NCBI GenBank assembly: GCA_902765595.1
Contig: CACXAQ010000016.1
Span: 1-64,000, forward strand
DNA length: 64,000 nucleotides
From: Oscillospiraceae bacterium
GTDB taxonomy: Bacteria > Bacillota > Clostridia > Oscillospirales > Oscillospiraceae
Reading direction: 5' to 3'
Part shown: positions 1,628-12,317 of the stretch, one piece after another
Layout: each line of letters begins with the position of its first letter
How positions within the stretch are numbered: position 1 is the first letter of the stretch
Position numbers and translations under genes: made by a program
Notes under the pieces: model-generated
Seen by the model: only the letters and a program-made list of their open reading frames with translations
Database searches by the model: none
What the model was told of the DNA's origin: nothing

Positions 1628-4462
1628 ATGCAGGATCAAATTTTCATTAAAGGCGCACGGGAGAACAACCTCAAAAATATCGATCTCAGCATTCCGCGGG
1701 ACAAGCTGGTGGTGATCACGGGCCTTTCCGGCAGCGGAAAATCCAGCCTTGCCTTCGATACGATCTATGCCGAAGGCCAGCGGCGCTATGTGGAGAGCCT
1801 CAGCTCCTACGCCCGCATGTTCCTGGGGCAGATGGACAAGCCGGACGTGGACTATATCGACGGGCTTTCTCCCGCCATCTCCATCGACCAGAAGACCACC
1901 TCCAAGAATCCCCGTTCCACCGTGGGGACCGTGACGGAGATATACGATTATCTCCGCCTTCTCTGGGCGCGCATCGGCGTGCCCCACTGTCCCAAGTGCG
2001 GCAGAGAGATCCGCCAGCAGACCATCGACCAGATCGTGGACCAGATCATGTCCCTGCCTGAAGGCACCAGGATCCAGATCCTGGCCCCGGTGATCCGCGG
2101 GAAGAAAGGCGAGCATGTCAAGGTGCTGGAGGATGCCAAGAAGTCCGGCTATGTCCGCGCCCGGGTGGACGGGAATGTGTACGATCTGTCCGAAGAGATC
2201 AAGCTGGAAAAGAACAAAAAGCATGATATCGAGGTCATCGTAGACCGCCTTGTAATAAAGCCTGAGATCGCCCGCCGTCTGAGCGATTCTTCCGAAACGG
2301 CTTTGGCCTTGGCAGGCGGCTTGATGCTGGTTGACCTGGTCGGGGAAGACCGGCAGATCGCCTTTTCCCAGAACTACGCCTGTGAGCACTGCGGCATCTC
2401 CATCGAGGAACTGACGCCGCGGCTCTTTTCCTTCAACAATCCCCACGGCGCCTGTCCCAAATGCACGGGTCTTGGGATGCAGATGCTCATTGACCCTGCC
2501 CTCATCATGCCGAATCCCAATCTCAGTATTCTGGACGGCGGCATTACCGCCAGCGGGTGGGGAAACGTCCGCGGTGATACCATCTCCAAGATGTATTTTG
2601 ACGCCCTTGCCAAACGCTATCATTTCAAGCTTTCCGATCCCATCAAGGACATTCCGCAGGAAGGACTTGACGCGATCCTGTACGGCACAAAAGGGGAGGC
2701 GCTGCAGCTTCGCTATGAAAAGAGCGAGGGCTTTGGCGTGATCCGCCGGGAATTTGAGGGGATCGTCAACAATCTGGAAAGACGCTACCGGGAGACGCAG
2801 AGCCCCTCCATGCGCGCGGACATTGAAGAATGCATGTCCGAAACGCCCTGCCCGGAATGCGAGGGAAGAAGACTGAAAAAGTCCGCCCTGGCTGTAACAG
2901 TCGGCGGCATGAACATCGCACAGTTTACCGACCTATCGGTGGGCAATGCCCTTCGTTTTATCGACGGTCTGGAACTGAACGATAAGGAAACCTTGATCGC
3001 CGCGCAGATCCTGAAAGAGATCAAGGCGCGACTCGGATTCTTGCAGAGCGTGGGTCTGGGTTATTTGACCCTTTCCCGCACGGCGGCTACGCTTTCCGGC
3101 GGCGAAAGTCAGCGTATCCGCCTGGCTACCCAGATCGGCTCCAGCCTGATGGGGGTCTTGTATATCCTGGACGAGCCCAGCATCGGTCTGCATCAGCGGG
3201 ATAATTCCAAGCTGCTCCGTACGCTGCAACAGCTTCGTGATCTGGGAAACACGCTGATCGTAGTAGAGCACGATGAGGAAACCATGCGTGCCGCGGATTA
3301 CATCGTGGATATTGGGCCGGGAGCCGGCATGAACGGCGGAAATGTTGTCTGCGCAGGGTCGATCGACGACGTCTGCGCCTGTGAAGGATCGGTTACCGGC
3401 CAGTATTTGAGCGGGAAAAAGAAGATCCCGGTCCCGTCAGTGCGACGCAGGGGCAACGGACACAAGCTTGTCATCCGCGGCGCTTGTGAGAACAACCTGA
3501 AAAATATTGATGTGGAATTCCCCCTTGGAGAGTTGATCTGCGTCACCGGCGTCTCCGGCAGCGGCAAATCTTCTTTGGTCAACGAGATCCTGTATAAGAC
3601 GCTTGCGGTGGAGAAGAACCGCAGCAAGGTCCGCCCCGGGAAATCTGCCGGTATTGAAGGTCTGGAGTATGTGGACAAGGTGATCGCTTTGGATCAGAGC
3701 CCCATCGGGCGCACGCCACGCTCCAATCCCGCCACCTACACCGGGGTTTTCAACGACATTCGGGATCTGTTCGCTTCCACCCAGGATGCAAAGCTCCGCG
3801 GTTACGGCCAGGGCCGTTTCTCCTTCAACGTCAAAGGCGGTCGCTGCGAGGCCTGCTCCGGCGACGGCCTGCTGAAAATCGAGATGCATTTTCTTCCGGA
3901 CGTCTATGTTCCCTGCGATGTTTGCGGCGGCAAGCGATACAATCGGGAGACCCTGGAGGTCAAATACAAGGGTAAGAACATTGCTGACGTGCTGGATATG
4001 ACTGTGGAGGAGGCCTGCTCCTTCTTTGCTAACCAGCAGAAGATTTTGAACAAGATCCAGACACTGTACGATGTCGGCCTGGGCTATGTGAAGCTGGGCC
4101 AATCCAGCACCACGCTCTCCGGCGGCGAGGCCCAGCGGGTGAAGCTGGCGACCGAGCTTTCCAAGCGCAGCACCGGCAGCACCGTCTATGTGTTGGACGA
4201 ACCGACCACCGGGCTGCATATTGCCGATGTGCACAAGCTGATCGATATTCTCAACCGCCTGACTGACGCGGGGAATACCGTCGTCGTCATTGAACACAAC
4301 CTGGACGTGATCAAGGTGGCGGACCATATCATTGACCTTGGTCCCGAAGGAGGAGACGAGGGCGGAACACTGGTATTTGCCGGAACGCCTGAGGCCTGTG
4401 CCGATTGTGCTGAGAGCTATACCGGCCAGTATCTGCGCCCGCTGCTTTCTGAAAACACCTGA
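1628..4462 (+). CDS. uvrA: excinuclease ABC subunit UvrA
   Basis: DNA damage-recognition ATPase of nucleotide excision repair; dimeric UvrA loads UvrB at lesions. The 944 residues match the usual length. The first Walker A (GLSGSGKSS, near residue 31) and second (GVSGSGKSS, near 641) mark the two ABC modules. Each module has an LSGGE(S/A)QR signature, and Cys-x2-Cys zinc ligands occur (CPKCG, CEHCG and CPKC, CEAC and CDVC). The ATG follows AGGGGA at a good distance. uvrB and uvrC are not adjacent. recD2 follows after 11 bases, so the pair is probably co-transcribed from the promoter upstream of uvrA. Confidence 0.97.
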
Positions 4463-4473
4463 GGAGGAACGCG

Positions 4474-6696
4474 ATGGATCAGGAAAAAGAGCTGATCGAG
4501 CTCAGCGGCTCTGTGGAATCGGTGATCTATAAAAACGAAGAAAACGGCTATACAGTCCTCAGGCTTCGAAATGAAAATGACGAGACCGTGACCGTTGTCG
4601 GGTGCATTCCCTTCGCATCGCCCGGTGAAACGCTTTACGCCACAGGAACTTGGACTACCCATAACGTCCATGGCCGGCAGTTTAAAGCAGAGTTTGCCCA
4701 GCGGGTGATGCCCACCGATGAAACTGCCATCTATCAGTATCTGGCATCCGGAACGGTCAAGGGGATCGGCCCTGCAACGGCGGCACTGCTTGTTCAAAAA
4801 TTTGGGAAACAGAGTCTTGACGTATTGGAAAATGAGCCGCAGAGACTCACAGAAATCAAGGGGATCACCCCTAAAAAAGCAGCCCAGATGTCCGCAAGCT
4901 TTCGGCAGCAGGTGGGAGTAAGGCGCCTGATGGAGTTTATATGCTCCTTTGATCTGCGTCCGGTGCTCGCCATGCGTATGTATAAGTATTATGGGGACAA
5001 GGCATTGGACCTTCTCCGGGAAAACCCTTACCTCCTGGCGGCGAGTCACATCGGCGGCAGCTTTTATGAGGCAGACCGACTGGCTCTGGACCTGGGCTTT
5101 GATGAGCATAACCGGAGCCGTGTGAGTGCTGCGGTCCTTTTTGAGCTCCAGCACAATCTTGGCAACGGCCACTGCTTCATCCCTCGGGAAAAGCTGGTGG
5201 CGGTCACATCGGAACTGATCCGGGTCGAGCCGGAGTCCGTCGAAGAGAGCGTAAAAGATTTGATCGAGTCCGGATTGCTTCGGTTTGAAGAGATCGCCGG
5301 ATGCAGGGCCTGTTATCTGCCGGAACTATATGAAGCGGAGACGGATACAGCGACGCAGCTTGCCCGGATGTGCCGTCGCCGGTTTGATGAGAAGGCGGAT
5401 CTGAATGCGCTGATCGCACAATTGGAGCAGAAGCTGGGGATCCGTTACGCGAAACTCCAGAAAGACACGTTGAACCTTGCATTAAAGCACCAGCTTTTGG
5501 TCATCACCGGCGGCCCCGGAACAGGGAAAACCACCTCGATCCGCGCGATCCTGGCCCTTTTTGATGAGCTTGGGATCCGCACGCTTCTTACCGCGCCCAC
5601 GGGCCGCGCCGCCAAGCGCATGACCGAGCTGACCGGTCGTGAGGCCTCCACGATCCACCGCCTTCTGGGAGCAAAATTCGACGAAGACGGTGAGCGTGTG
5701 ATATTCTCCAAAAATGAAGGAGAGCGGCTGGAGTGCGATGCCGTGATCCTGGATGAATGCTCCATGGTCGATATTCAGTTGATGGACGCATTGCTGAAGG
5801 CCCTGCCGCCGGATGCAAGATTGATCCTGGTGGGAGATGCCGATCAGCTTCCCTCCGTCGGGCCTGGAAATGTATTTTCCGCTGTGATCCGCAGCGGCGC
5901 TGTCGCAACTGTGCGTCTGACAGAGATATTCCGGCAGAACGAAGGGAGCCGCATCATCAAAAACGCCCATCTGATCAATAAAGGGGAGCACCCGGATTTT
6001 TCCGCCAATACCGGAGATTTCTTCCGTTTAAAGCGACTTCAGGCTGCAAGCACCGTGGATACCATCGTGGAGCTTTGTGCGTCACGTTTGCCGCAGAAGA
6101 TGCAGATCCCGTCTTCCGAGATCCAGGTCCTTTCTCCAACAAGAAAGGGAGAGCTTGGCACGGTGAATCTGAACAAGCGTCTTCAGGAGGCCCTGAACCC
6201 CTCTGCAAAGGAGAAAAAAGAAAAGCTCTTTGGAGATGAAGTCTTCCGGGAGGGGGACCGGGTCATGCAGATCCGAAACAATTACGACATCCTTTGGCAC
6301 AATGAGAACAACACTGCCGCCGGCCTCGGGATCTTTAACGGCGATATTGGGAACATTGTTTCGGTCGATCTGGAAGGAGAGACCCTGACGGTGGACTTTG
6401 ACGGCCGCATCGCCCAGTATGGCTTTGATTCGCTGTTGGAGTTGGAACACGCTTGGGCTATGACGGTCCATAAGGCGCAGGGAAGTGAATACCGGGCTGT
6501 GATCCTTGCCCTGGGCAACAGCGCACCCATGTTGATGACACGGGACATCCTCTATACGGCAGTGACCCGGGCAAAGGATCTTTTGATCCTGGTAGGGGAT
6601 GAGGAGGTCGCCCATCGTATGGTCGACAATTACCGTCCCAGCAAGCGATACTGCGCTCTGCGGGTCCGTTTGCGTTCCCTTTGCGGGCTCGACTGA
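4474..6696 (+). CDS. recD2: RecD2-type ATP-dependent DNA helicase
   Basis: A superfamily 1B 5'-3' DNA helicase of the RecD2 (RecBC-independent) group, linked in other bacteria to repair and replication-fork maintenance. At 740 residues it has the long N-terminal OB/helix-hairpin-helix region typical of RecD2 rather than enterobacterial RecD. Walker A GGPGTGKTTS lies near residue 347, the Walker B segment (LDECSMVD) near 425, a GDADQLPSVGPG motif III follows, and the C-terminal AMTVHKAQGSEY motif is intact. A GAGGAGGAA ribosome site precedes the ATG. It directly follows uvrA, forming a repair operon. No recB or recC-like gene is in the window. Confidence 0.93.
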   Translation: MDQEKELIELSGSVESVIYKNEENGYTVLRLRNENDETVTVVGCIPFASPGETLYATGTWTTHNVHGRQFKAEFAQRVMPTDETAIYQYLASGTVKGIGPATAALLVQKFGKQSLDVLENEPQRLTEIKGITPKKAAQMSASFRQQVGVRRLMEFICSFDLRPVLAMRMYKYYGDKALDLLRENPYLLAASHIGGSFYEADRLALDLGFDEHNRSRVSAAVLFELQHNLGNGHCFIPREKLVAVTSELIRVEPESVEESVKDLIESGLLRFEEIAGCRACYLPELYEAETDTATQLARMCRRRFDEKADLNALIAQLEQKLGIRYAKLQKDTLNLALKHQLLVITGGPGTGKTTSIRAILALFDELGIRTLLTAPTGRAAKRMTELTGREASTIHRLLGAKFDEDGERVIFSKNEGERLECDAVILDECSMVDIQLMDALLKALPPDARLILVGDADQLPSVGPGNVFSAVIRSGAVATVRLTEIFRQNEGSRIIKNAHLINKGEHPDFSANTGDFFRLKRLQAASTVDTIVELCASRLPQKMQIPSSEIQVLSPTRKGELGTVNLNKRLQEALNPSAKEKKEKLFGDEVFREGDRVMQIRNNYDILWHNENNTAAGLGIFNGDIGNIVSVDLEGETLTVDFDGRIAQYGFDSLLELEHAWAMTVHKAQGSEYRAVILALGNSAPMLMTRDILYTAVTRAKDLLILVGDEEVAHRMVDNYRPSKRYCALRVRLRSLCGLD

Positions 6697-6710
6697 ATCT
6701 GATCCTATGG

Positions 6711-6746
6711 AAAAAATTGCAGGAAAGCAAATGCTTTCCTGCAATT
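6711..6746 (-). terminator. intrinsic terminator of the spore protein gene
   Basis: A 14-bp perfect stem (6715-6728 with 6733-6746, four-base loop) is followed on the minus strand by a run of six T. It lies between the convergent recD2 and the spore protein gene and may also slow plus-strand transcription. Confidence 0.8.
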
Positions 6747-6766
6747 CCGTTCACACAGTTGTGAGC

Positions 6767-6967
6767 TTACTTCATGCCGTTCTCGTAGGCCTCAATCATT
6801 TTCTTGACCATCTGGCCGCCGACGGAACCGGCCTGACGGCTGGTCAGTTCGCCGTTGTAACCGTTCTTCAGGTTGACGCCGACTTCAGAAGCGGCTTCCA
6901 TCTTGAACTTATCCATGGCCTCGCGGGCAGCGGGGTTCACAAGATGATTGCTGGAATTGGTAGACAT
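6767..6967 (-). CDS. alpha/beta-type small acid-soluble spore protein
   Basis: A 66-residue DNA-binding protein of the alpha/beta SASP family, which coats and protects spore DNA and is degraded at germination. The conserved segments are visible: an N-terminal NPAAREAMDKFK helix, the EVGV segment around the germination-protease site, then GELTSRQAGSVGGQMVKKMI with the GGxMVKxMI ending. GAAGGAGA serves as the ribosome site. It is a single-gene unit with its own terminator. Expression in the forespore by sigma-G is expected for the family; a partial -35-like match is noted upstream. The paralogue number (sspA, sspB and so on) cannot be assigned. Confidence 0.93.
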   Translation of the reverse strand: MSTNSSNHLVNPAAREAMDKFKMEAASEVGVNLKNGYNGELTSRQAGSVGGQMVKKMIEAYENGMK

Positions 6968-7008
6968 GTTTCCATCTCCTTCGATTCTATTTGGGTCATC
7001 GCCCGAGC

Positions 7009-7039
7009 TTATCTTTTGCGTTTGCAGAAGGGATATTCA
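7009..7039 (-). promoter_or_regulatory. possible sigma-G promoter for the spore protein gene
   Basis: TGAATA on the minus strand (7039-7034) matches the sigma-G -35 consensus, but the heptamer 18 bases downstream (AAGATAA) resembles CATACTA only weakly. The assignment rests mainly on the type of gene it precedes. Confidence 0.3.
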
Positions 7040-7060
7040 AAAAAAATTTGGTATTTTATC

Positions 7061-7089
7061 TTTACCTGTGATAGAAAAGAAGGTACAAT
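7061..7089 (+). promoter_or_regulatory. sigma-A-type promoter for the P-type ATPase homologue
   Basis: TTTACC (7061-7066) and TACAAT (7084-7089) have a 17-base spacer, 38 bases before the chosen ATG. It is divergent from the spore protein gene. Confidence 0.55.
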
Positions 7090-7127
7090 AGAAAAATAGA
7101 AACAAAGCGTACACGGGAGTGAAAGAT

Positions 7128-9116
7128 ATGGCCAAGCATTATGCGCCATCCGATCATAAAACTGTTCAAAAGGAAAAACCGGAGCAAAAACGGCGTTTGC
7201 CAACATTCCGCTTTTCGACGCTTCCCAAACTCTTGGAAACGAAAAAAAGGCCCCTCCCCAAGAAGACGTATCCGCGTGTATTCTCGGTGGGGGAAATGCT
7301 CCTCCTATTGGGGGCAACCTTGCTCTTTATTGTGAGTATCGTCTTTCGTTTCCCGCCGCTGATCGAAACGGCACTTCTCGCCCTATGCGCGGTTCTAGCT
7401 CTGCTTCCCCCACTGTTTCAGAATGTGCTGAAGATCTTCAGCCGGCGCCTGCCGGATGAGGACATTTTGATCACGATCGGCGTGATTGCGGCTTTTTGCA
7501 TCGGAGAACAGGTTGGCGGCGCGATCGCCGCGGTGCTGTACCGTCTTGCGCAGATCCTGGAGGCCTACGCAGTGGAACGGGGCGGGGCAGGTATGGACCT
7601 TGTGAGGGACAAGCTCCCGGAAAAAGCACGAGTGCTGTTCGGAGACCAGACCCAGGAGCTCATGCCGGAAATCGTGGAACCCGGGCAGGTGGTCCTGGTG
7701 GAAAACGGCGAGATGATCCCCTTGGATGGCGTGATCCTGTCCGGTATTACGGAAGTGGATCGCTCCGCCCTGACCGGAAACGACAGCCCTGTGACCTGCG
7801 GCGTGGGGGACGAGGTTTTTTCCGGTTCCGTAAACTGCGGGGGACCGATCCGCGTTCAGGTGAAGCGCAGCTTTGCCGATTCCGCCGCGGCAAGTCTCCT
7901 GCATGACGTGGAAGCGTCCGCCAGGTATAAGACCACACCGGAGCGCCTGACAGAAAAGATTTCTGCCTTGCTTGGCCCCGCGGTCGGTGTCCTTGCGGTC
8001 CTGATTGCCGTGATCCCGTCCCTGATCGGGGGCAACTGGTCACGGTGGCTTCGATGCGCAGTGATTTTTCTGCTGACTGCCTCCCCCAGCGCGCTTGCCA
8101 TTTCCATCCCGCTCTCTTGCTTCGGCGCGGAAATGAGCGGGATCCTTCACGGAATCCTGAGCAAGGGCCATGACTGCTTTGAAGTTCTCGCCAGTGTAAA
8201 AACCATGGCATTCGGCAAGACCGGCACCATCACAGAGGGACGTTTCGAAATCACCGGGATCGAGGCAAACGGAGTTCGGCAGGAGGACCTGGTGGCGGTT
8301 GCGGCAGCGGCGGAGAGTTATTCTCACCATCCGATCGCCATGCTCCTCAAACACGCTGCCGGCTGGACTCCTTCCGTTGCCGACGGCGTGATGGAGGTGC
8401 AGGAGATCCCCGGCCGCGGGATCAGTGCGTTCATTGAAGGCAGGCATGTATACGTAGGAAATGCTGCGCTTCTGCAGGAACACGGCGTCTCCTACAATGT
8501 TCCCGCAAGGGCCGGGGCCGCCATCCATGTGGCAGTGGAAAACCGCTATTGGGGCCACATTCTCATCAGTGATAAAACGCGCGAGGGTGCCTTTGACGCC
8601 CTGGAAGCGCTGCGGAGCCAGGGCGTGGATCAGTTGGTGATGCTCACGGGCGATGTGCCCTCTGCCTCCCGGCAGCTGGCTTCTTCTCTGGGCTTTGATC
8701 TCCTTCGTACGGAATTGACCGCGGAGGGGAAGGTTTCGGCCATTCAGTATCTGATTTCCGGAAAAGGAAACGGGACCAGCGTCGGCTTCGTAGGCGATGG
8801 GATCAACGACGCTTCCATGCTGGAGTGCGCAGACGTGGGACTTGCCATCGACGCCCTGCATGCCTGGAACGAGGCAGACGCGGCGGATATTCTTCTGCTG
8901 GATGACGACATCGAATCTCTTCCTCGCGCCATGCGGATCGCACGATCCCTCAGACGGATCTTGTGGGAGAATTATGGCGGACTGTTGGGAATGAAACTTC
9001 TGGTACTTCTGCTTGCTCTTTGCGACGTGATCCCCCTTGGACTTGCCGCACTGCTTTTGACGGCTTCTTCCGCGCTGGCGCTTCTGAACAGCCTGCGCGC
9101 CTTCGGACTGAAATAA
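7128..9116 (+). CDS. heavy-metal P-type ATPase homologue lacking catalytic residues
   Basis: The fold and order match P1B-type metal-transporting ATPases (662 residues): N-terminal membrane helices, actuator domain, a membrane pair, P/N domains with a SHHP motif near residue 400, GDGIND at 556-561, and two C-terminal helices. The key chemistry is missing. DKTGT reads GKTGT, so the phosphorylated Asp is Gly363. The membrane CPC is SPS (319-321). The actuator TGE(S/A) is TGND (216-219). There is no N-terminal CxxC metal-binding domain; the first 45 residues are basic and proline-rich. The frame has no stop or shift. I chose ATG 7128 (GGGAG eight bases upstream) over an in-frame GTG at 7119. Likely a pseudoenzyme; transport cannot be assumed. 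Confidence 0.85.
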   Translation: MAKHYAPSDHKTVQKEKPEQKRRLPTFRFSTLPKLLETKKRPLPKKTYPRVFSVGEMLLLLGATLLFIVSIVFRFPPLIETALLALCAVLALLPPLFQNVLKIFSRRLPDEDILITIGVIAAFCIGEQVGGAIAAVLYRLAQILEAYAVERGGAGMDLVRDKLPEKARVLFGDQTQELMPEIVEPGQVVLVENGEMIPLDGVILSGITEVDRSALTGNDSPVTCGVGDEVFSGSVNCGGPIRVQVKRSFADSAAASLLHDVEASARYKTTPERLTEKISALLGPAVGVLAVLIAVIPSLIGGNWSRWLRCAVIFLLTASPSALAISIPLSCFGAEMSGILHGILSKGHDCFEVLASVKTMAFGKTGTITEGRFEITGIEANGVRQEDLVAVAAAAESYSHHPIAMLLKHAAGWTPSVADGVMEVQEIPGRGISAFIEGRHVYVGNAALLQEHGVSYNVPARAGAAIHVAVENRYWGHILISDKTREGAFDALEALRSQGVDQLVMLTGDVPSASRQLASSLGFDLLRTELTAEGKVSAIQYLISGKGNGTSVGFVGDGINDASMLECADVGLAIDALHAWNEADAADILLLDDDIESLPRAMRIARSLRRILWENYGGLLGMKLLVLLLALCDVIPLGLAALLLTASSALALLNSLRAFGLK

Positions 9117-9134
9117 TGACTCGGGGGGCGGTAT

Positions 9135-9698
9135 ATGAATACCTACGATTTTGATCAGACGATTTTTTACCCGGACAGCTCTTACTGCTTCGTGATGTTT
9201 TGTCTCAGGCATTACCCTCGCGCCGTTCTTCACGCGCTGCCGGGTGTGGCGCTGAAGGAGCTCGAGATGCTGTGGCAACAGACGGATACCAAAGCACTGA
9301 AAGAGAAGGTCTTTTCTTTCCTGCCGTATTTGGATGATGTGGACAGGATCGTAGAGGAATTCTGGCAGGAGCATCGAAAAAACCTGATGGAATGGTATCT
9401 CAGGCAAAAAAAGCCGGATGATCTGATCTTATCGGCTTCACCGGACTTTCTGCTGCGGCCTGTCTGTGAGGAGCTGGGCGTCAGCCTGATCGCAACGCCC
9501 ATGGACCGTTATACAGGCAAGATCTGCGGACAAAACTGCCATGATGAGGAAAAAGTCAGACGTTTCTATCAGGAATATCCGGACGGAAAGACGGAAAACT
9601 TTTACTCGGATTCTCTCTCGGACACACCAATGGCGGAAATTGCGGATCATGCGTTCCTGGTGAAAAAAGGGGCCCTGGAACCCTGGCCGGAAAAATAA
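9135..9698 (+). CDS. HAD-superfamily phosphatase-like protein
   Basis: A 187-residue protein resembling HAD subfamily IB hydrolases (SerB/PSPase-like). Motif I is YDFDQT at residues 3-8 with both aspartates (DxDxT), a motif II serine lies in LSASP, and a motif III/IV-like YSDSLSD segment has acidic residues, so it looks catalytically competent. A helical cap of about 65 residues separates motifs I and II. The substrate cannot be read from sequence. A GGGGGG-type ribosome site precedes the ATG, 18 bases after the ATPase homologue. This suggests co-transcription, with a HAD hydrolase next to a HAD-fold ATPase that has lost its own aspartate. Confidence 0.8.
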   Translation: MNTYDFDQTIFYPDSSYCFVMFCLRHYPRAVLHALPGVALKELEMLWQQTDTKALKEKVFSFLPYLDDVDRIVEEFWQEHRKNLMEWYLRQKKPDDLILSASPDFLLRPVCEELGVSLIATPMDRYTGKICGQNCHDEEKVRRFYQEYPDGKTENFYSDSLSDTPMAEIADHAFLVKKGALEPWPEK

Positions 9699-9702
9699 AA
9701 AA

Positions 9703-9739
9703 ACAGTGCGGCTTCCTATCGTGAAGAAAGCCGCACTGT
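9703..9739. terminator. bidirectional intrinsic terminator
   Basis: A 12-bp stem (9703-9714 with 9728-9739) is flanked by an A-rich tract on the left and a short T-run on the right. It can end both the HAD gene and the convergent membrane protein gene. Confidence 0.8.
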
Positions 9740-9755
9740 TTTATTGCGTATTGAA

Positions 9756-10229
9756 TCATTTGAATTCCGGGACAAAGGTGCCGACGATGCCCATGATTCT
9801 GAGGCGGGAACGGATCTTTTTATAGTCCTTATTATACAGCAGCGTGCGCAGCTCGTCGTCCGGAATAAAGCGGGCGTAGGCGTTGCTGAACACATCGAAC
9901 ATGTTCTTGTTGCCGGGCTTCATTTTGGGAACAATGAAGAGGAAAGCCGCAACTGCGCCGACGGCAAAAGCAATAATCATGTAGAGCGGGCAGAAGCGGA
10001 TCACCAGGAACAGCAGCACAGCGCCGATCAGCACCGAGACAGCATTGGAAATCATGGTATAACGCCTTGCACCGATCGCGATGAGATCGGGCTGCAGGGC
10101 GTTCATTTTTTTGATCAGCGGGGACGCGACCAGGAGATTAAACAGAAACTGCCGCAGGAACAGATAAGTCCAAAGAAAACCGCCCAGTACAAGTGCTCCG
10201 CTGAGCATGATTTTGGTTTCAATACCCAT
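9756..10229 (-). CDS. small membrane protein of unknown function
   Basis: A 157-residue protein that I do not recognise. Hydrophobic stretches near residues 9-30, 60-80 and 82-102 suggest three membrane helices. They are followed by a charged cytoplasmic tail rich in Lys/Arg, with a KKIRSRLRIMG segment. A GGAGGT ribosome site precedes the ATG, and a good sigma-A-like promoter lies just upstream. It is monocistronic and divergent from spoIIIAA, but shared regulation with sporulation is not shown by the sequence. Confidence 0.75.
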   Translation of the reverse strand: MGIETKIMLSGALVLGGFLWTYLFLRQFLFNLLVASPLIKKMNALQPDLIAIGARRYTMISNAVSVLIGAVLLFLVIRFCPLYMIIAFAVGAVAAFLFIVPKMKPGNKNMFDVFSNAYARFIPDDELRTLLYNKDYKKIRSRLRIMGIVGTFVPEFK

Positions 10230-10266
10230 ATATTATGACCTCCAAATCCTCTTGCGATCTTTGTGT

Positions 10267-10295
10267 ATCATAGCACATGCCGGAATAAGTTTCAA
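10267..10295 (-). promoter_or_regulatory. sigma-A-type promoter for the membrane protein gene
   Basis: On the minus strand TTGAAA (10295-10290) and TATGAT (10272-10267) are separated by 17 bases. No clear sigma-E promoter for spoIIIAA was found in the same intergenic region, although several ATA-containing motifs occur. Confidence 0.6.
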
Positions 10296-10341
10296 GAATA
10301 ATTCTGATCCAGACGAATAGATTGGATGCGGGAGTGATGGA

Positions 10342-11211
10342 ATGGACAGCCTGAAATGCGCGATGGAGCTTCTGCCATCCAATTGGAGACAAGCCTGTGA
10401 ATCGTATAAAGCATGCGGCCTGGAGGAGATCCGGCTTCGAACAGGGCGCAAGCCCACTGCTTTGCTGGCCGATGGCGAGCACCCTTTTGCGGACGAGCCT
10501 GTATCGGAGGAGATTTTGCTGCGCGTGTTGGAGAAAGCGACGGGAGCTTCGATCCATACTGCCGCTCCGGCTCTTTCAGAGGGCTACCTGAACTACCGTG
10601 GCCTGCGGATCGGCGTTTGCGGCACTGCCGTAATGAAAGAGAGAACATTTAGTGGATTTAGAAGAATAAGCTCTCTTGCCATCCGGATCCCTCGGGAATG
10701 TCGGGAGATCTGTAAGACCGAAAAAGAGTTCCTTCTTCGGGAAGGGTTTCGGAATACTTTGATCATCGGCAGACCTGGAGACGGAAAGACGACGGCCCTT
10801 CGGGAACTGATTCGTTTCTTTTCCGATAAAGGGTACCGGATCGGCGTGTCCGATGAGCGAAATGAGCTCGCTGCTGTGGACGGGAGTGGTCCCCAGTTTG
10901 ATTTGGGAAGAACCAGCGATGTTGTGACAGGTGTCCCCAAGGTGGAGGGCGCCATGATGCTGCTGCGCGGGATGAACCCACAGATCCTTGCCATGGACGA
11001 GATTTCCCACGAAAAGGATCTGGATGCCATCCGGCAGATCGTTGGCTGCGGCGTATCGCTTCTTGTCAGTGCCCATGGTTCAGACCTGGCGGAGCTGAAA
11101 AAACGGCGGGGTTATCGCGAGCTTTTGGAGCAGGGCGTTTTTTCATTTCTCCTGCGTGTTGAACGCTTCGGACGGGACAGACGCTACGATCTCAAAACGA
11201 TCGATGTATGA
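10342..11211 (+). CDS. spoIIIAA: stage III sporulation protein AA, secretion-type ATPase
   Basis: The ATPase of the SpoIIIA-SpoIIQ channel (feeding tube) between mother cell and forespore, related to type II/IV secretion ATPases. The 289 residues fit the family. An N-terminal domain precedes Walker A GRPGDGKTTALREL near residue 141. A DERNELAAVDGS segment and an acidic Walker B-like LAMDEISHEKD follow. The Walker loop has Asp where many homologues have Ser. An ATGA overlap couples it to spoIIIAB. It opens an eight-gene operon; mother-cell sigma-E control is expected from the family but no promoter was assigned. Confidence 0.95.
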   Translation: MDSLKCAMELLPSNWRQACESYKACGLEEIRLRTGRKPTALLADGEHPFADEPVSEEILLRVLEKATGASIHTAAPALSEGYLNYRGLRIGVCGTAVMKERTFSGFRRISSLAIRIPRECREICKTEKEFLLREGFRNTLIIGRPGDGKTTALRELIRFFSDKGYRIGVSDERNELAAVDGSGPQFDLGRTSDVVTGVPKVEGAMMLLRGMNPQILAMDEISHEKDLDAIRQIVGCGVSLLVSAHGSDLAELKKRRGYRELLEQGVFSFLLRVERFGRDRRYDLKTIDV

Positions 11212-11717
11212 GGATCATCGGAGCTTGCCTGCTGATGGCGGCATTTCTTCTCGCCGGAGTCGGAATCATACATGAAAAACGGACCAGGATCCGAACGCTG
11301 CGGGAGCTTTGCTCTGCATTGGAGATCATGCAGGGAGAACTGTCGGTCCGGGAATCCTCCATCCCGGAGCTGTGTCGAATGCTGAGCATCCATGGGAGCG
11401 GGAAAGCAAAGATCCTATTTACCGCCTTGCTTGAAATGCTCCCGCTTTTGGGTGAATGCTCTTTCTCTGCGCTTTGGGACAAGGCTATACTCTGCTGCAA
11501 AAATGACTTGAACGCATCGGAACGGGAGGCCGTAAGATCGCTGGGTCTTGTACTGGGGAGATACGATACCCGGACCCAGATCAGGCAGCTTCAGTCCTGC
11601 GCAAGGCTGCTGAATCAAAACATGGCCGCAGATGAACAGCGCTTCCCGGCTGAAAGGAAGCTTCTGCTGGGCCTCGGCGCCTCAGCAGGCGTGATGATGG
11701 CCGTGCTGCTATGGTAA
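11208..11717 (+). CDS. spoIIIAB: stage III sporulation protein AB
   Basis: A membrane component of the SpoIIIA channel, similar to GspF-type secretion platform proteins. It has 169 residues, with a hydrophobic N-terminus (residues 1-20), a long helical middle containing the family-typical LRELCSALEIMQGELSVRESSIPE region, and a C-terminal hydrophobic segment. Its start overlaps the spoIIIAA stop by four bases, implying translational coupling. Length and operon position match the family. Confidence 0.92.
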   Translation: MRIIGACLLMAAFLLAGVGIIHEKRTRIRTLRELCSALEIMQGELSVRESSIPELCRMLSIHGSGKAKILFTALLEMLPLLGECSFSALWDKAILCCKNDLNASEREAVRSLGLVLGRYDTRTQIRQLQSCARLLNQNMAADEQRFPAERKLLLGLGASAGVMMAVLLW

Positions 11718-11733
11718 ATACAAAGGAGTTCAC

Positions 11734-11928
11734 ATGGATGTTGACTTGATCTTCAAGATCGCCGCAATCGGGATCCTGGTTGCGGTTTTAAATATTTTGC
11801 TGCAGCGATCCGGCAGAGAGGAGCAGGCGCTGATGACCACGATCACCGCCCTGGTTGTGGTGCTGATGATCGTTGTACAGAAAATCAGCGAGCTGTTCAA
11901 CATGATCAAGACCTTGTTTCATTTGTAG
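11734..11928 (+). CDS. spoIIIAC: stage III sporulation protein AC
   Basis: A 64-residue integral membrane subunit of the SpoIIIA channel complex. Two hydrophobic helices (about residues 5-22 and 32-50) are linked by a short QRSGREEQ loop, as expected for SpoIIIAC. An AAGGAG ribosome site precedes the ATG. spoIIIAD starts two bases after its stop, so the two homologous membrane subunits are tightly coupled. Confidence 0.92.
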   Translation: MDVDLIFKIAAIGILVAVLNILLQRSGREEQALMTTITALVVVLMIVVQKISELFNMIKTLFHL

Positions 11929-11930
11929 AG

Positions 11931-12317
11931 ATGGAGCTGATCTATAAAGCTTCGGCGCTGGCCCTTTTGTCTGCAGTAGTCAGTCTCTTGCTGAAAAAGC
12001 AGAATCCCGAGGCTGCGCTCCTACTCAGCGTGCTGACAGCCGTGGGGATCCTGATCGCAGCCATGGGACTTTTAAACGGACTGCAGGAGCTTCGAGAGCA
12101 GATCAGGAAGATTCTCGGCGGCAGTGAGGTTTTGATCGCGCCGATCATGAAGTGCCTTGCGATCGCCATTGTAACGAGGATCGCATCAGAACTCTGCAAG
12201 GACTCCGCACAAAACGCAGCGGCGGCCGCGGTGGAACTCGCGGGAACGGTATGCGCCGTCAGCACGGTCATGCCGCTCTTGATGAGCGTACTGAAGATGA
12301 TAGGAGGGCTGGTGTGA
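11931..12317 (+). CDS. spoIIIAD: stage III sporulation protein AD
   Basis: A 128-residue membrane subunit of the SpoIIIA channel, distantly related to SpoIIIAC. It has an N-terminal hydrophobic pair, a GGSEVLIAPIMKCL segment, an ELCKDSAQNAAAAAVELAG segment typical of the family and a C-terminal helix. No separate strong ribosome site is visible in the two-base gap, so translation probably depends on spoIIIAC. Its last bases carry the GGAGGG used by spoIIIAE. Confidence 0.92.
   Translation: MELIYKASALALLSAVVSLLLKKQNPEAALLLSVLTAVGILIAAMGLLNGLQELREQIRKILGGSEVLIAPIMKCLAIAIVTRIASELCKDSAQNAAAAAVELAGTVCAVSTVMPLLMSVLKMIGGLV

Follow-up and report, generated by a model that had tools for sequence, protein, structure and literature searches.

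Why would a heavy-metal P-type ATPase that lacks the residues on which pumping depends be kept as an open reading frame? This question is raised by a gene in a 64,000-nucleotide stretch of DNA from a gut bacterium of the Oscillospiraceae (assembly GCA_902765595.1, contig CACXAQ010000016.1, positions 1 to 64,000); the stretch is called the window below. An earlier note on this DNA had described an open P-type ATPase frame in which GKTGT, SPS and TGND replace the canonical motifs, with SHHP and GDGIND retained and a HAD-type gene with an intact DxDxT downstream; re-reading of the coordinates and motifs bore out each part of this description (Table 1).

The product of the gene matched TIGR01525 over its whole length with 392.8 bits, above the curated cut-off of 346.25, which places it by descent within the P1B group. 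It also matched TIGR01512 (349.7 bits, cut-off 313.5), PF00122 (123.1 bits) and, across residues 82-658, the ZntA structure 4umv (E 8.4e-56), matches that indicate descent from an export ATPase of the zinc/cadmium type. An alternative in-frame start, GTG at 7119, lies nine bases 5' of the ATG at 7128; translation more likely starts at the ATG, since 45 of the 56 members of the family described below share the M-x-K/R-H motif with which the protein would then begin.

Among the features expected of a working pump, this copy keeps the GDGxxD pair and lacks the Asp of DKTGT, the Glu of TGE and the membrane CPC; the codon at 8214-8216 is GGC, encoding Gly363 of GKTGT. Judged from these motifs and from established P-type chemistry, the window protein cannot form an aspartyl phosphate or run the phosphorylation-transport cycle, since it has no phospho-acceptor Asp, no Glu for dephosphorylation and no Cys pair to bind the metal. 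Because it scores above the TIGR01525 cut-off, proteins of this kind would be annotated as metal-resistance pumps though unable to pump, and eroded P1B copies matter for the annotation of metal resistance.

Table 1. Features of the pseudo-ATPase locus. Positions are those of the window and residue numbers those of the pseudo-ATPase; fractions are out of 56 family copies (or loci) or 27 canonical copies.
Feature	Position	Strand	Basis or conservation
Alpha/beta-type small acid-soluble spore protein	6767-6967	-	PF00269; just upstream of pseudo-ATPase
P1B-type pseudo-ATPase, 662 aa, first member of eroded family	7128-9116	+	open frame, profile match, alignment
TGND replacing TGES/TGEA (A domain, residues 216-219)	7773-7784	+	Glu218: 3/56 family, 27/27 canonical copies
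SPS replacing metal-binding CPC (residues 319-321)	8082-8090	+	both Cys: 1/56 family, 27/27 canonical copies
GKTGT replacing DKTGT (residues 363-367)	8214-8228	+	Asp363 17/56, Lys364 55/56, Thr365 55/56, Gly366 54/56
SHHP, N-domain HP motif (residues 399-402), retained	8322-8333	+	His401 53/56, Pro402 54/56
PGRG, N-domain GxG motif (residues 428-431), retained	8409-8420	+	Gly429 51/56, Gly431 56/56
P-domain stretch (residues 485-541)	8580-8750	+	family-near-invariant residues, different or variable in canonical pumps
LTGD (residues 506-509), retained	8643-8654	+	Leu506 55/56, Gly508 53/56, Asp509 55/56
GDGIND Mg site (residues 556-561), kept here, lost in many orthologues	8793-8810	+	Asp557 35/56, Asp561 41/56
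HAD-IB phosphatase-like gene, 187 aa, 18 bases past pseudo-ATPase stop	9135-9698	+	PF12710 72.7 bits
157-aa protein, no family match above cut-off	9756-10229	-	relatives on 12/56 family loci

The eroded family in the window's genus

The genus of the window (g1) is represented by 102 genomes, and 61 of them, the window's own included, were among the 99 genomes searched. Among the matches listed, aligned loci placed an eroded orthologue in 57 of the 61; the other genomes (G007, G009, G028 and G046), which are 57-73% complete, showed no eroded orthologue among the matches listed and no match to the HAD gene either. In all, 113 loci drawn from the matches listed were aligned, a subset of the listed P-type matches. 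They comprise 56 usable family copies and 57 other loci, from which 27 canonical rows were chosen (20 from the genus itself, the remaining 7 from elsewhere in the order, outside its taxonomic family). One carrier genome is counted through a copy cut by a contig end (L090), which was excluded from the 56-row tables and the trees, and two very divergent copies without an adjacent HAD gene (L102 and L104) were assigned to the family by erosion and similarity.

The full set of Asp363, Glu218, Asp557 with Asp561, and the Cys pair was found in none of the 56 family copies, as against all 27 canonical copies. Position 363 is D in 17 family copies, G in 16, S in 8, N in 8, E in 6 and T in 1, and the most constant losses are those of the TGE Glu (53/56) and of an intact Cys pair (55/56). 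The hallmark of the family is the loss of the complete catalytic and transport set, not particular replacement residues. To the earlier question whether the same three substitutions recur in homologues, the answer is that the losses do, and that the exact residues vary (SPS 9/56, TGN 8/56, Gly363 16/56), and one fixed triple of substitutions as a family signature was rejected by these residue counts. A sequencing or assembly error at 8214-8216 is unlikely, since the 16 copies with Gly363 come from separate genomes.

On the tree with 51 family rows, at least five changes are required in the presence of Asp363 and at least five in that of the GDGxxD pair, indicating that erosion was piecemeal. 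Asp363 and Glu218 occur together in only two of the 17 Asp363 copies (L021 and L032), the latter adding the GDGxxD pair, and part of the pump chemistry may survive in some species that keep Asp363. Asp644 is kept in 20/56 and Lys623 in 34/56 copies, and one branch within the family (L093, L098, L099 and L100) has shorter proteins, with frames of 579-595 aa and no aligned A domain. Long open frames were found in all 56 usable copies of the genus. A few genus matches, for example in G023 and G122, were flagged with an in-frame stop.

Ten relatives lie on named contigs, seven of them 62-66% identical and three 42-47%; they are labelled as uncultured members of the Oscillospiraceae, Ruminococcaceae, Clostridiales or Clostridia, and several come from goat, sheep or red deer. 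For one of the ten (L123, CACZXQ010000026.1), the match to the window gene is not in one open frame; this copy may be broken, or its assembly may be faulty.

In each of three trees a single branch separates the family from all other rows, with support of 100/100 in the careful tree (25 family rows), whose bootstrap had not settled. The second tree held 51 family rows; L105 was excluded from the first, in which a member of a second pseudo-family (L004, below) carried the family label, and L004 was excluded from the later two. The branches of the family are long in the trees, a sign of fast evolution.

In a profile search, the best few candidates were scored in each of 400 genomes from the taxonomic family and 295 from the order. 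Among these best candidates, nine genomes of the genus gave E values of 3e-266 to 3e-219 and all others 1.4e-208 or weaker; a tenth genus genome, G001, fell below the threshold. Motifs were read at 26 loci from this search: all eight from the genus were eroded (five from newly examined genomes, with G027, G008 and G023 previously known) and all 18 from outside it were intact. Owing to this score gap and this division of motif states, the eroded family appears restricted to the window's genus within the sampled genomes.

In five genomes of the sister genus g134 the orthologous HAD gene has a P1B ATPase gene as its neighbour, and in four of them the ATPase is intact (L186, L187, L188 and L205, the last being the same locus as L137, fetched twice). 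The fifth HAD-linked copy, L204 (G432:C8), has lost TGE, CPC and GDGIND and kept DKTGT, SNHP, GRG and LTGD. In the careful tree its long branch falls within the g134 group, and this nesting among intact copies argues that erosion of the same kind took place there a second time, independently. The branch that would unite the g134 copies and the window family in a common HAD-linked ancestor has support of only 71/28, and in the second tree one g134 copy grouped with the canonical clade.

The window's own genome encodes two motif-intact P-type ATPases, the ZntA-like L002 (C1:23379-25139) and the CopA-like L003 (C11), and an intact paralogue is also present in many of the genus genomes fetched. 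Outside the window, the same genome holds a second, more degenerate pseudo-P-type ATPase of 549 aa (L004, also L124; G000:C4:159713-161359), which has no A domain and carries DKAG for DKTG, SEQ for HP and YANG for GDGIND. This protein lies below the Pfam cut-off and is therefore invisible to the usual annotation; by hhalign it aligns to the first family with E 1.4e-62 over 510 columns. Its relatives occur in 73/102 genomes of the genus (31-69% identity, a few of them partial), and strong matches of this type were found in genera g73, g134, g127 and g60, with motifs read for six (g73 and g134).

Selection on the cytosolic head

Estimates of dN/dS by the Nei-Gojobori method, rough values since many dS exceed 1, were 0.05-0.26 in 11 orthologue pairs of the family, indicating purifying selection, and 0.07-0.23 in seven canonical pairs; the HAD gene gave 0.07-0.15 in the 8 of 11 pairs for which a value could be computed (3/11 could not). 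The proposal of the earlier note that the gene encodes a repurposed pseudo-transporter and is not in recent decay is supported by these low values, by the recurrent losses and by the intact paralogues in its own genome.

Analysis by domain showed where this constraint lies. The P and N domains, which form the cytosolic head, had dN/dS of 0.03-0.10 and the membrane parts 0.05-0.40, with the head lower in all 11 family pairs; the head was also below the A domain in 10/11 pairs, and in most pairs the membrane parts had the highest dN/dS of the protein. In canonical pairs the order is reversed, the head lying above the membrane parts in 6/6; these six pairs are not identical with the seven of the whole-gene test. 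Mean pairwise identity in the family was 0.48 for N, 0.46-0.47 for P and 0.24-0.28 for the membrane parts, as against 0.49, 0.63-0.64 and 0.57-0.70 in canonical copies. Constraint has moved from the membrane to the cytosolic head in the eroded family.

Four residues of the head, Glu396, Gly431, Gly444 and Lys535, are invariant in the family (56/56 each); together with Lys364, Thr365, Asp509, Pro402 and His401, we take them to lie at or near the nucleotide and phosphate in P-type enzymes. The combination found here, presumed nucleotide-contact residues retained under selection and catalytic residues lost, is that expected of a nucleotide-binding pseudoenzyme. A further group is family-specific and near-invariant: Pro459, Glu493 and Arg496 (55/56 each), Ser512 and Tyr541 (54/56 each) and Phe489 (53/56), followed by Phe523 (53/56), Arg515 (51/56) and Asp490 (50/56), all nine being variable or different in canonical pumps. 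Arg485, present in 51/56 family copies, is Lys in 27/27 canonical ones, and Glu529, present in 55/56, is also Glu in 16/27. From their pattern, the family-specific residues of the P domain would look like a new binding surface. In an AlphaFold2 model of the full-length protein (ten-sequence alignment, mean pLDDT 58.0) the helices and the A domain appear and the P and N domains are poorly modelled; the P-N head was also modelled by itself from a ten-sequence alignment (mean pLDDT 42.4), and both models are too poor to show an ATP site or the patch.

The HAD-IB gene and the explanations weighed

The product of the downstream gene contains, besides DxDxT (DFDQT), the other HAD catalytic residues. 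Its residues 4-177 match TIGR01490 (HAD-IB-hyp1), for which the curated cut-off is 98.3 bits, at a lower score of 62.8 bits. A sequence search of solved structures gave no informative HAD relative, the best chemically relevant match being 3fvv (E 0.029). An orthologue of this gene lies on 54 of the 56 family loci; among the 57 other loci it lies on one, that of the truncated family member L090. It is present in 93/102 genomes of the genus, 34/34 of the good ones, and in 26/150 genomes of the taxonomic family (19/106 genera). In G052, G104 and G132 the pseudo-ATPase and the HAD gene are on different contigs, and G014 has an eroded copy and no HAD match. In other genera the HAD gene was found without an adjacent pseudo-ATPase, and its neighbours there, read by eye, were mixed and pointed to no substrate.

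The surroundings of the family loci differ from those of the other ATPase loci: an ArsR-type repressor gene is near 42/57 other ATPase loci and near 4/56 family loci, in flanks of 1.5-3 kb that are unequal between the two groups. A nitroreductase gene is present on 15/56 family loci, between the ATPase and HAD genes in the loci read, and a TetR-type gene on 9/56; loci bearing the nitroreductase gene include L018, L019, L017, L020, L024 and L034. Neighbours in the window are uvrA, recD2, spoIIIAA/AB and, on the minus strand, the gene for the alpha/beta-type spore protein. On family loci, spore-protein genes were counted at 24, obgE at 16, spoIIIAA at 14 and uvrA at 6 of the 56, all lower bounds. 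An Rfam scan of window positions 4000-12000 gave no match.

We are highly confident that the window protein is a pseudoenzyme. The explanation that we favour, and consider probable, is that it acts as a membrane-anchored, nucleotide-binding pseudo-pump whose head passes on a signal, perhaps to the HAD phosphatase. The membrane part would have relaxed towards an anchor, while the N/P head keeps its presumed ATP-contact residues and carries the new conserved P-domain patch. The head, for which the retained residues make nucleotide binding the likelier state, would hold ATP or ADP without turnover, and nucleotide-dependent closing of the N and P domains would expose the new surface for a partner to bind. 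As this partner, the HAD-IB phosphatase encoded just downstream would be the best candidate, a pairing that gene neighbourhood suggests and that we propose tentatively. The favoured explanation draws on the loss of the full motif set throughout the single clade, the low dN/dS, the shift of constraint, the invariant head residues, the frequent HAD neighbour, the rarity of ArsR genes and the sister-genus copies beside HAD. Weighing against it are the copies that keep Asp363, the genomes with unlinked HAD genes or without a HAD match, the nitroreductase gene on 15/56 loci and the HAD genes of other genera that have no adjacent pseudo-ATPase.

A membrane scaffold, in which the head binds a partner protein without nucleotide and HP and GxG are kept for folding, would show the same head conservation and the same new patch, and the second pseudo-family, which has no HP, is nevertheless conserved as a protein. 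We regard this as unlikely for the window protein, whose presumed ATP-contact residues are among the least variable in the family (56 or 55 of 56), beyond what folding alone would predict. Its own genome and many others of the genus also hold an intact paralogue that an inactive copy could regulate, by forming a mixed dimer with the ZntA-like ATPase or by competing for metal. Such a regulatory role is quite unlikely, as the membrane domain, the expected meeting place of metal or sister pump, is the least conserved part and the metal-responsive ArsR gene is mostly missing from family loci.

That the family comprises working ATPases or transporters of altered chemistry, at least where Asp363 is kept, is very unlikely: Asp363 does persist in 17/56 copies and the GDGxxD pair often, but the full set occurs in none, Glu218 accompanies only two of the 17 Asp363 residues, both Cys are found in a single copy, and the window copy has neither Asp363 nor Glu218. 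The earlier note had also raised a channel-like role. Membrane helices are predicted to remain in the low-confidence model, and a passive metal channel could be built from them; we disfavour this as highly improbable, given that no other part of the protein is as poorly conserved as the membrane domain, with the lowest identity and, in most pairs, the highest dN/dS, and with Asp644 and Lys623 each lost from many copies. A decaying pseudogene, its frame open by chance, merits almost no credence. In its favour are the lost motifs, the fast evolution of the family and the interrupted frame in one of the ten named relatives; against it stand the 56 open frames, the low dN/dS, the family-specific conserved residues and the greater constraint on head than membrane.

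If the pseudo-pump reading is extended beyond the window, P-type pumps in this family of bacteria might repeatedly have become membrane-bound nucleotide sensors, as in the window family, L204 and the second family without an A domain; the head of the window protein would then read the ATP/ADP state and gate the co-encoded HAD-IB phosphatase, constituting a new type of bacterial signalling module. We offer this wider proposal as a doubtful one.

Comparison with known P-type ATPases and pseudoenzymes

Pseudoenzymes, dead kinases among them, are well known; our literature search found no description of a catalytically dead P-type ATPase family in bacteria. With the ZntA-type Zn/Cd/Pb ATPases of the P1B group (TIGR01525, TIGR01512; 4umv), the window protein has in common homology over its whole length, the N-domain HP and GxG motifs and LTGD. 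It differs from them in lacking the phospho-acceptor Asp, the TGE Glu and the CPC, in a head more constrained than its membrane part, and in its locus, as the family mostly has no ArsR neighbour and has a HAD-IB gene downstream. The product of that gene shares its catalytic residues with the HAD-IB-hyp1 phosphatases (TIGR01490), although it scores under their cut-off.

Human TMEM94 is the nearest precedent that the literature search gave. It has P-type-like domains and no TGES, and one report describes micromolar binding of AMPPCP and no detected ATPase activity, and discusses a proposed Asp site, D417, as present (PMC12134183). Its activity is disputed, as a 2026 paper defends TMEM94 as a Mg ATPase (PMC13322241). 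In contrast to the window protein, TMEM94 is eukaryotic, with ten membrane helices and an unrelated function.

The intact g134 ATPases (L186, L187, L188 and L205) belong to the same family of bacteria and lie directly beside the orthologous HAD-IB gene; they differ from the window family in that all of their motifs are intact. With more than 50 orthologues, these intact relatives that share the HAD neighbour, and the independent repeat in the sister genus, the function of a P-type ATPase without its cycle becomes directly testable.
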